Shown piece after piece: positions 4,996 through 8,223 of a stretch of 55,775 bases of DNA. Under the pieces are notes generated by a model. The model saw only the letters and a list, made by a program, of their open reading frames with translations, did no database searches and was not told the DNA's origin. The stretch is from contig WGBX01000130.1 in assembly GCA_015494075.1 (NCBI GenBank), positions 1 through 55,775 of the forward strand, in the 5' to 3' direction. Numbering within the stretch: position 1 is the stretch's first letter; each line of letters starts with the position of its first letter. Source of the DNA: Flavobacteriaceae bacterium. GTDB lineage: Bacteria > Bacteroidota > Bacteroidia > Flavobacteriales > Flavobacteriaceae. A program made the position numbers and the translations under genes.

Positions 4996-5031
4996 AAAAA
5001 AGCAACACTCAATATGTAAGTGCTGCTTTTT
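4996..5031 (-). terminator. Intrinsic terminator of the cytochrome bd operon
   Basis: Read on the minus strand, AAAAAGCAGCACT pairs with AGTGTTGCTTTTTT around a 9-nt loop, with one G-U pair, and ends in a T run. It lies 46 nt after the small ORF that follows cydB. The G-U pair forms only in minus-strand RNA, which fits that direction. Confidence 0.7.
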
Positions 5032-5076: not shown

Positions 5077-5190
5077 CTATGCTTTTGAATGTTTTTGATC
5101 ATATTTCTTAATGGCCCAAACGCTCAGAATATAACTGAGGTAAATAATGACAGGCCAACTGATAAAATGTATAAGTCCATAAGTAGTCAT
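5077..5190 (-). CDS. 37-aa single-span membrane protein downstream of cydB, candidate CydX-like subunit
   Basis: Not in the ORF track. ATG at 5190 to TAG at 5077 reads MTTYGLIHFISWPVIIYLSY followed by ILSVWAIKKYDQKHSKA. It has one transmembrane stretch (about residues 5-26) and a basic C-terminal tail, the usual shape of tiny respiratory-complex subunits. It begins 12 nt after the cydB stop, before the operon terminator, and is the only ORF there. E. coli CydX is also 37 aa and is encoded right after cydB, but I see no convincing sequence similarity, so the parallel is one of position, size and topology. The function is inference; that this is a real gene is fairly likely. Confidence 0.68.
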   Translation of the reverse strand: MTTYGLIHFISWPVIIYLSYILSVWAIKKYDQKHSKA

Positions 5191-5202
5191 AAGGATATTT
5201 TT

Positions 5203-6384
5203 TTAATATTTGTCTAATTCTTGTTTTAATTCTTTTTGGTTAATTTTTCTGGCATCCATAGCGCGCCAAGCCCAAATAATATATGCCAATACAAACGGAA
5301 CCATTAAGGATACATAAGACATTACAATCAATGTAAACCGGCTGGAAGAACTATTTGCTATAGAAATAGAGCTTTGCAAATCATAAGTAGACGGATAATA
5401 TGGTGTATGGTTGAAGCCGGCTATAAAAAATAATGCTATTACTGTTAATATGGTACCAACTCCTGTATACCAAAATGCTTTTTCATCTTGCTTAAAATTG
5501 GCTTTGTATAAACCATATAAAACACTAGCCAAACCGGCCAATAATACCAGTAAGGTTAAGGGCGATCCAATCAAATTGTCAAAATATTTATGAGCTTGCA
5601 TAAATACCTCTTTAGTATCCGGATTGATAGCAAAACCGTCAATAAATAACAAACGAATAAACCAAGTTAAAAATAAAACCAAAAATATAACGCTATGACG
5701 TGGAATACATTTATTAACCTTGCTTAAAATAGCAGGTTCGTTAGTCATCTTGCGAATATATAACAGCGCATTTAAACGGGCTAACATTAAGACTGCCAAA
5801 CCTAAAAGTATATTTTGTAAAAAAGCCAAATGTTCAGTTGTCCATAGTGCTTCCAAGCCATGCCAAGGGGTTGCCCATTGTGAGATAATAGCTTCTACAT
5901 TACTGTTGAGTTTTACGATATTGTCTTTGTGAATACTAAAGGCACTTCCCGTAAAAAAGGTAGATACTGCAACACCCAGTAAAAATGGAGCTGCATAACC
6001 GTTAAATTTTAAAAAGGCTTCGAATGTTTTACTGCCCAAAAAGTTATTTTTCTTTTTGCGGTATTCATAAGAGACGGCTTGTACTATAAATGCAAACAAG
6101 ATGGCATACCAAACCCAATAGGCGCCACCAAAACTTGTTGAATAAAACAATGGAAAAGAGGCGAAAAAAGCACCGCCGAATACAACTAATGTTGTAAAAG
6201 TAAATTCCCATTTATGACCAATAATGTTGACCACAACTGTTTTCTCACCTTCATTGTCGCTTAATTTGTCTATTAGAGTTTGCCCTCCTTGAACAAATAA
6301 AAGGAAAACCAAAAATCCGCCTAATATTGAGATAATGATCCACCAATAAATCTGTAAATTTTCATATGATAATGCTTCAAACAT
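5203..6384 (-). CDS. cydB: Cytochrome bd ubiquinol oxidase subunit II
   Basis: 393 aa with about eight or nine membrane segments, starting MFEALSYENLQIYWWIIISILGGFLVFLLFVQGGQTLI, the typical CydB opening for this phylum. FASFPLFYSTSFGGAYWVWYAILFAF and LGVAVSTFFTGSAF match conserved CydB regions. CydB is the structural partner of CydA in the high-affinity oxygen-reducing quinol oxidase of the inner membrane. It lies 12 nt after cydA and is followed 12 nt later by a 37-aa membrane ORF. Length and segments look intact. Confidence 0.95.
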   Translation of the reverse strand: MFEALSYENLQIYWWIIISILGGFLVFLLFVQGGQTLIDKLSDNEGEKTVVVNIIGHKWEFTFTTLVVFGGAFFASFPLFYSTSFGGAYWVWYAILFAFIVQAVSYEYRKKKNNFLGSKTFEAFLKFNGYAAPFLLGVAVSTFFTGSAFSIHKDNIVKLNSNVEAIISQWATPWHGLEALWTTEHLAFLQNILLGLAVLMLARLNALLYIRKMTNEPAILSKVNKCIPRHSVIFLVLFLTWFIRLLFIDGFAINPDTKEVFMQAHKYFDNLIGSPLTLLVLLAGLASVLYGLYKANFKQDEKAFWYTGVGTILTVIALFFIAGFNHTPYYPSTYDLQSSISIANSSSSRFTLIVMSYVSLMVPFVLAYIIWAWRAMDARKINQKELKQELDKY

Positions 6385-6396
6385 AATTGTAAATTT

Positions 6397-7968
6397 TTAG
6401 TTGCTAAATCCTTTTTTAATTTCAGTCGACATAATTTTCAATTCGGCAATTAATAAAGCCGTAAAGGTGATGAAAAATAAGAAAAAGGTTATCATCACAC
6501 TGGTGCTTTCAATATGAGAAACGGCCATAAAAGTAGGCATCAAATCTTGGATAACCCAAGGCATACGACCGGCTTCAGCAGTAATCCATCCGGCTTCTTG
6601 AACAATAAAACCTAATGGTAAGCCTAAAACGCCGAGGCGAAGTAGCCATTTGTTTTTTTCTATTGTACCTCGCATTACAGCTCGAAAAACCAAAATAAAA
6701 AAGATAAAAAACCATCCGCCTAATATGACCATAGTATGAAATGATGTAAAGGTGATAGCCACCGGTGGCACCAATTCATTCAAATCATGACCGTCAAAAT
6801 AACCGTAACCGAAATCTTTAAAATGTGCACGAAAAGTAGCTAAATATTTTTTAGCAGCTTCGGTGTCACCTGATTTTTTAGCTTTTTTGTAGTTCGCTAA
6901 TGCCTCAATACTGATTTTACCGCTTTTAATTCGTTCTTGATAAGAAGGAATACCTTCTTTTTCATTGCCATATACTAAGTCGTCAATACCGGGAACAAAG
7001 GCATCGGGATCATTAAATGCTAAAACTGATAATCCATAAGGAATTTCAAAGCCTTCTGCTGCAACATTTAATTGATCTTCACCCTTTAAATCTTTTAAAA
7101 CTTCTTTGTGTGTCGGTTCGCTTTTTAAATGTTTGGGCTTACCAATTGCTATAATAGGAGCACCACGTGAGCCTTTTTTTAAACCTTCCATTGAGGCTAA
7201 TTTCATTGGTTGATACCTTGCCACTTGCTTAGCAGAACCATCGCCGGTAATAATTGTAGCGGAAATACCTATAAAGCCAAAAATAGAAGCAATAAGCATA
7301 CTGTATTTAGCCAATGACTTATCTTTGCCTTTAATTAATAAATAAGAACTGATAGCAATGACAAATAAGGCAGCAAAAGTATAAGCCGAAGTAATGGTAT
7401 GCAAAAATTTATTAACCGCTACCGGATTGAATAATACTGCTAAGAAGTCATGCATTTCATTACGCATGGTGTCCGGATTAAACTCCATACCTACCGGATT
7501 TTGCATCCATCCGTTTGCAACAAGTATCCATAATGCTGATAAATTACTGCCAATAGCCGTTAACCATGTAGCCCATAAGTGAGTTTTTTTGCTGACTTTG
7601 TTCCAGCCGAAAAACATTATAGCGACAAAAGTCGATTCCATAAAAAAGGCCATAATACCTTCAATGGCTAAGGGTGCACCGAAAATATCACCGACAAACC
7701 ATGAGTAGTTTGACCAGTTGGTGCCAAACTCAAATTCAAGAATAATACCGGTTGCTACACCAATTGCAAAGTTAATTCCAAATAGTTTAAGCCAAAATTT
7801 TTCTATTTTCAGCCATTTTTCATCGCCGGTTTTAACATAAATGGTTTCCATGATGGCCAACATAAATGACAGCCCTAAAGTAAGTGGTACAAATATCCAA
7901 TGATATAAGGCTGTTAGCGCAAATTGCGCCCGTGACCAATCGACTAATTCCCAATTGATATGTTCCAT
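6397..7968 (-). CDS. cydA: Cytochrome bd ubiquinol oxidase subunit I
   Basis: 523 aa. CydA carries the haems and oxidises quinol while reducing oxygen to water. The expected ligands are visible: His23 in ALYHWIFVPLTLGLSF (haem b595 type), the His of NKFLHTITSAYTF and the Met of SFHTMVILGGW (haem b558 type), and the quinol-site Lys and Glu in MKLASMEGL. A Q-loop of about 130 residues follows, and GRMPWVIQDLMPT stands where GRQPW is usual. It sits inside the operon DUF4492-cydA-cydB-small ORF. This supports respiration at low oxygen or under respiratory stress. Confidence 0.97.
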   Translation of the reverse strand: MEHINWELVDWSRAQFALTALYHWIFVPLTLGLSFMLAIMETIYVKTGDEKWLKIEKFWLKLFGINFAIGVATGIILEFEFGTNWSNYSWFVGDIFGAPLAIEGIMAFFMESTFVAIMFFGWNKVSKKTHLWATWLTAIGSNLSALWILVANGWMQNPVGMEFNPDTMRNEMHDFLAVLFNPVAVNKFLHTITSAYTFAALFVIAISSYLLIKGKDKSLAKYSMLIASIFGFIGISATIITGDGSAKQVARYQPMKLASMEGLKKGSRGAPIIAIGKPKHLKSEPTHKEVLKDLKGEDQLNVAAEGFEIPYGLSVLAFNDPDAFVPGIDDLVYGNEKEGIPSYQERIKSGKISIEALANYKKAKKSGDTEAAKKYLATFRAHFKDFGYGYFDGHDLNELVPPVAITFTSFHTMVILGGWFFIFFILVFRAVMRGTIEKNKWLLRLGVLGLPLGFIVQEAGWITAEAGRMPWVIQDLMPTFMAVSHIESTSVMITFFLFFITFTALLIAELKIMSTEIKKGFSN

Positions 7969-8001
7969 AGGTTACATTTTTTAAGTGTTATATAAAAGTT
8001 A

Positions 8002-8223
8002 TTATTGTGGATTTTTGGTAATAATCAGTTCTTGTTCTATATGTTGAATGCGTTCTGTATCGTTTTTATAGTTTTCTTTCATAATGTCAGGAAAAAAGAA
8101 ATACTTTAAGATGGCAAACATGATAAAAAGCTTGATTAAAATAATTAACCAAAGCTTTTTGCCGCGGGGAGTCATCTCTTTAAAACCTTCCAAATAAAAG
8201 TTAAGGATTTTTTTTAGAATCAT
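8002..8223 (-). CDS. DUF4492 protein, small membrane protein of the cytochrome bd operon
   Basis: 73 aa with a central hydrophobic span (LWLIILIKLFIMFAILKYFFFP) after an amphipathic start (NFYLEGFKEMTPRGKK) and before a charged tail. FYxEGFKxMT-GKxLWLIILIKLFIMF is the pattern I associate with DUF4492, a Bacteroidota family found just upstream of cydA. It begins the operon, 33 nt before cydA, downstream of a strong promoter. Its position suggests a role in assembly or stability of the bd oxidase, but no function is established from sequence. Confidence 0.85.
   Translation of the reverse strand: MILKKILNFYLEGFKEMTPRGKKLWLIILIKLFIMFAILKYFFFPDIMKENYKNDTERIQHIEQELIITKNPQ

Follow-up and report, generated by a model that had tools for sequence, protein, structure and literature searches.

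A short ORF at the end of the cydAB operon

The window, a 55,775-nucleotide stretch of Flavobacteriaceae DNA, encodes a bd oxidase on its minus strand. Subunit I, which has a long Q-loop, is encoded by cydA (6397-7968; PF01654, E 8e-160) and subunit II by cydB (5203-6384; PF02322, E 3e-61). Exactly 12 nt beyond the cydB TAA, an ATG opens an ORF of 37 codons (5190→5077, minus strand; hereafter the sORF), a candidate gene for a bd-oxidase subunit that is CydX-like in function. Its translation is MTTYGLIHFISWPVIIYLSYILSVWAIKKYDQKHSKA followed by a stop codon. The ORF was assigned to the minus strand because the same interval on the plus strand contains a stop. A 73-aa DUF4492 gene (8002-8223, minus strand; PF14899, 93.5 bits) comes first; with cydA, cydB and the sORF in order and DUF4492 upstream of cydA, the operon reads DUF4492-cydA-cydB-sORF. 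Its end is marked at ~4997-5031 (minus strand), about 45 nt past the sORF, by an intrinsic terminator-like hairpin with a 15-bp stem and a U-run (dG -17.5 kcal/mol; z -5.8, computed against shuffles), which was absent from the list returned by a simple terminator scan. The initial annotation had placed a 37-codon ORF at 5077-5190, 12 nt after cydB and ahead of the terminator, and was correct in each respect; the strand, which it left unstated, is minus. The four operon genes (5077-8223, minus strand) share one reading frame and are separated by spacers of 33, 12 and 12 nt. The next gene past the sORF in the window is rfbA.

The length of the sORF is no evidence for a gene, since the window contains 135 ATG ORFs of 30-60 aa. 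What goes beyond chance is how well its frame, start, position and residues are conserved. A single helix is predicted for residues 3-35 (mean pLDDT 86), in agreement with the single-span membrane protein originally described. About three Lys/Arg residues lie past the helix versus about zero net charge ahead of it; positive charge after the helix suggests an N-out, C-in topology, going by charge bias only. A Foldseek search with the lone helix returned zero matches.

Residue columns were counted over 60 aligned sORF proteins from Bacteroidota. Pro13 is found in 60/60 and Trp12 in 52/60, position 20 is aromatic in 56/60 (Tyr20 in 42/60), and Glu or Asp occupies position 31 in 52/60. Ser19 (40/60), Lys28 (46/60), Lys29 (40/60) and Trp8 (35/60) are less uniform; the window protein has His at position 8. 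The family is defined by Pro13, Trp12, the aromatic residue at position 20 and a Lys-Lys-x-Glu motif where the helix ends.

The CydA of the window aligns across the entire Q-loop with E. coli bd-I and bd-II, whereas its alignment with short-loop enzymes is piecemeal only. The best matches of the whole-enzyme model were likewise E. coli bd-II and bd-I, the carriers of AppX and CydX. AlphaFold was given an in-frame read-through CydA-CydB-sORF chain in which stops were read as Gly. The oxidase fold was recovered, and the sORF helix was modeled with low confidence (pLDDT ~34-66), so no contact or placement claim is drawn from this model.

Constraint on the sORF and its occurrence after cydB

Thirteen genomes of the genus were sampled, including the window's own, and cydB was found in seven. 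All seven carry the sORF, 4 to 13 nt past the cydB stop, and the genus sORFs align without gaps before the C-terminal tail, save for one start-proximal Thr codon. Searches with the final profile gave no significant match in five of the six sampled genus genomes that lack cydB, and a first search found no sORF in the sixth, an incomplete assembly. A weak profile match (E 0.06) was seen in the cydB-less genus genome G012.

Summed over genus pairs, pN/pS is 0.257 in the sORF frame and 1.04 and 2.60 in the two alternative frames, as compared to 0.184 for cydB; these are rough figures because dS values are near saturation. Neutral evolution was simulated 5000 times for each of four pairs, and only 0-2 runs per pair reproduced the observed protein conservation without stops. 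Differences among the sORFs are distributed 170/97/291 over the three codon positions, a third-position bias. The sORF is an evolutionarily constrained gene under purifying selection. A dN/dS comparison had been proposed with the initial annotation; the in-frame pN/pS in the genus rounds to 0.26. The initial annotation had also held that loss of the reading frame after cydB in relatives, or frequent stops within it, would speak against a gene; in the relatives examined the frame is conserved.

These figures also bear on whether the ORF could be incidental and its conservation a reflection of the 3' end of the cydB mRNA (RNA structure, a leader or coupling). The stretch from cydB to the terminator, in which the sORF sits, is a place where RNA signals are found, but the third-position bias and a low pN/pS in one frame only argue for a protein, as do amino acids that are conserved phylum-wide while spacer lengths and DNA diverge. 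We therefore regard an RNA signal as highly improbable.

Occurrence beyond the genus was assessed in the 80 best cydB loci from one scan of a named-genome collection; the cydB query was Bacteroidota-trained, and many of these loci are metagenome assemblies. A profile seeded with the seven genus proteins was iterated over the 18,558 six-frame ORFs of the 80 loci. At E < 0.01 it detected the sORF in 60 of these 80 best named Bacteroidota loci, in every case on the cydB strand and downstream of cydB, and the next-ranked ORF scored E 0.67. The sORF starts within 300 nt of the cydB stop in 59 of the 60 loci, and the gap is at most 35 nt in ~60% of measurable loci. The exception, locus L077, has an inserted gene (~5200-5761) between cydB and the sORF, whose product resembles four-helix-bundle proteins of the rRNA intervening sequence type. 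A 61st sORF is visible below threshold at L065 and was scored as present on the CydB tree described below. An evenly drawn sample of the class yielded the sORF in 3 of 13 other cydB genomes. A profile search of 395 other genomes of the phylum gave zero matches at E <= 1e-4; this search scores best first-look candidates only and bounds false positives better than prevalence.

At seven loci (L017, L020, L037, L038, L044, L047 and L058) the gene after the sORF encodes a small protein that we take to be NifX-like, with a dinitrogenase iron-molybdenum cofactor domain. The operon tail in several relatives is thus not purely made up of oxidase genes, as would be expected if the sORF encoded a membrane protein with another job (supplying quinone or iron/haem, for example) and were only a passenger in the operon. 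The sORF nevertheless trails cydB in 60 loci regardless of which gene follows, and the profile finds no copy away from cydB in genomes sampled across the phylum; an unrelated job is very unlikely. The sORF is a real gene common to many Bacteroidota, and it most likely encodes a small helper subunit of the oxidase that is missing from catalogues and comparable to E. coli CydX. A CydX-like small gene is thus the rule in many Bacteroidota cydAB operons too.

Relation to known small subunits and proposed role

Searches of Pfam, NCBIfam and the PDB with the window protein, the 60 members and the profile gave no family match. Since the family is absent from the curated libraries searched, "CydAB" expressed from the cloned cydA and cydB of such bacteria may miss a subunit. 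Sub-threshold hits, PspB among them (E 0.0013-0.12), were rejected because their scores do not come near the curated cut-offs (52-90 bits).

The initial annotation noted no obvious resemblance in sequence to CydX, and CydX profiles indeed do not detect the sORF: none of the 60 members matches the Pfam or NCBIfam CydX models. Ranking of the sORF family with a CydX HMM gave an AUC of 0.71 with no significant score, and hhalign of the two families gave a probability of 28%; membership of the CydX family by sequence was rejected on these three results. A gapless alignment over 27 columns pairs W8, W12 and E31 of the sORF with W2, W6 and E25 of CydX, with weak statistical support. The general features agree: like CydX and AppX, the sORF is the last small gene after cydB, encodes 30-40 aa with one helix and accompanies a long-Q-loop CydA. 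Most members share with CydX a pair of Trp residues four apart at the helix start, and a Glu lies 23 residues past the first Trp. The CydX N-terminus, M-W-Y-(F/L)-x-W-x-L-G, is missing from the sORF family, which instead has W-[LFY]-x-[STA]-W-P preceded by further residues (6-8 extra at the N-terminus). An invariant Pro follows the second Trp, the C-flank reads KKxE, and no Gly matches CydX Gly9. CydX itself is described as confined to some of the qOR1 oxidases with a long Q-loop (PMC13189123); the Q-loop extension has been described as proteobacterial. Because the similarity is weakly supported, the sORF product is said to work most likely like CydX and is not named CydX.

CydY/CioY of Epsilon- and Deltaproteobacteria (Allen 2014, PMC4325964; Froschauer 2025, PMC11955535), rather than CydX, is probably the closest published analogue. 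The choice of CydX in the initial annotation fits in size, position and single span, but CydY/CioY probably lies nearer. In operons that have a long-Q-loop CydA and no cydX, CydY/CioY is likewise encoded after cydB; it is ~34 aa long in C. jejuni and has one helix with a Trp at its start. A further hydrophobic small protein is encoded upstream of cydA in those operons as well (PMC4325964, PMC11955535). Its reported conserved Trp, Pro and Tyr have counterparts, when compared by description, in Trp12, Pro13 and Tyr20 of the sORF at the frequencies given above. The two differ in phylum, and their likeness rests on published descriptions rather than sequences; plasmids, phages and viral contigs searched for a Campylobacterota CydY sequence contained none. 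On this comparison by description we lean slightly towards the two being one family, of which the sORF may be the Bacteroidota arm. The name CydY has also been given, by a 2019 paper on the E. coli structure, to the unrelated YnhF/CydH of that species (PMC6853902).

The initial annotation was aware of no established subunit at this position in the phylum. This stands insofar as no library searched contains the family, but at the opposite end of the operon the phylum does have CydW/DUF4492: CydW of P. gingivalis is a published small cyd-operon protein in Bacteroidota (PMC4668044). From its size and position, DUF4492 is probably CydW. Like the sORF product, it is a small membrane protein that this Bacteroidota operon encodes; it differs in its length (73-82 aa), its place ahead of cydA, its unrelated family and its retention where the sORF is missing. 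A PF14899 search matched the neighbor at 8002-8223 and did not match the sORF. Of the 72 Bacteroidota cydAB loci whose upstream sequence reaches far enough, 68 have DUF4492, which makes it a second, more universal, candidate subunit of the same oxidase.

Other single-helix accessory proteins of bd oxidases include CydS (Geobacillus), CydZ (DUF2474), CydH (YnhF) and CydP. CydS and CydZ accompany short Q-loops, and CydH is encoded away from cydAB. The sORF matched neither the CydZ/DUF2474 (PF10617) and CydP models nor any PDB chain, among them those of the E. coli bd and Geobacillus bd structures. Identity with CydZ was rejected for lack of a PF10617 match and because the window's CydA has a long Q-loop, not a short one.

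Taken with the conserved frame and the linkage to cydB, these comparisons suggest that the sORF is quite probably the translated last gene of the operon and encodes a single-helix integral bd-oxidase subunit working like CydX. The candidate CydX-like subunit first proposed is supported to this extent by a frame kept in 7/7 genus genomes and 60/80 best loci under purifying selection; we infer its expression, topology, binding and function. In E. coli, CydX lies on TM1, 5 and 6 of CydA; its C-terminus is cytoplasmic, and Glu25 serves as a "float" (PMC6853902). CydX also lends stability to the bundles that carry the haems, and dimers of bd-II and of bd-I form through it (PMC8585947, PMC13189123). 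Going by charge, the sORF product would have its N-terminus towards the periplasm and its C-terminus, rich in Lys and Glu, towards the cytoplasm. The helix would be capped on the periplasmic side by the WP motif, with Glu/Asp31 at the cytoplasmic edge like CydX Glu25. The helix would most likely pack on the outer CydA face at TM1/5/6, the CydX site, where it could stabilise the haem-bearing bundles and/or assist assembly, possibly dimerisation too.

A partner of the oxidase could instead act away from the CydX site, for instance by binding CydB or lying above the oxygen channel at haem b595 as CydH does in E. coli, or by helping assembly and then dissociating from the finished enzyme. What the analysis demonstrates is linkage within the operon and joint occurrence with cydB, and the similarity between sORF and CydX sequences is not significant, both of which leave room for such a placement. 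The Trp-x3-Trp and Trp-x22-Glu register and the gene position resemble CydX, however, and CioY, the nearest analogue in the literature, binds CioA in C. jejuni and has been modeled at the CydX site (PMC11955535). We consider an off-site partner unlikely.

Absence of the sORF from one CydB clade

The distribution of the sORF was mapped on a tree of 86 CydB proteins, whose root is unsettled. In one supported clade the sORF is absent from 13/13 scorable members, while in the rest of the tree it is present in 64/70. The clade comprises Bacteroides, Phocaeicola, Mediterranea, Barnesiella, Prevotellaceae, Tannerella and relatives, together with two long-branched genomes of the window's order. Presence and absence require 7 changes on the tree as compared to 19.7 when shuffled. 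The pattern is consistent with vertical inheritance and either clade-level loss or gain after the split of that clade. Whole-genome searches of genomes with cydAB of the type found in this clade gave no convincing sORF copy elsewhere. DUF4492 is kept in 16 of 17 loci without the sORF and in 52 of 55 loci with it.

The sORF is therefore not universally required, since an entire clade whose cydAB is related gets by without it. For P. gingivalis, the absence of cydX, cydY and cydZ has been reported (PMC4668044), which makes its cyd operon a published example without such a small gene downstream. Absence in the Bacteroides/Prevotella/Tannerella clade provides a natural comparison for the role of such subunits. 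A more elaborate history is conceivable but rather doubtful, in which the family arose independently of CydX, CydS and CydY, was ancestral to most Bacteroidota cydAB operons, was lost in the gut/oral Bacteroidales clade and works by a mechanism unlike that of CydX (e.g. gating of oxygen access, or dimerisation with DUF4492).

Isolated absences within carrier clades are seen at L063, L053, L099 and L120; L063 is sister to the carrier L046. At L038 (991-1449, genome G583), the first part of cydA runs in frame into the last part of cydB and ~2 kb are missing, by either deletion or assembly collapse; L058 has intact cydA and cydB and an sORF protein identical to that of L038. A contig catalogued as viral (IMG/VR 3300022753_003446; L150 / L159) bears a Bacteroidales-type cydAB, which is presumably host DNA.
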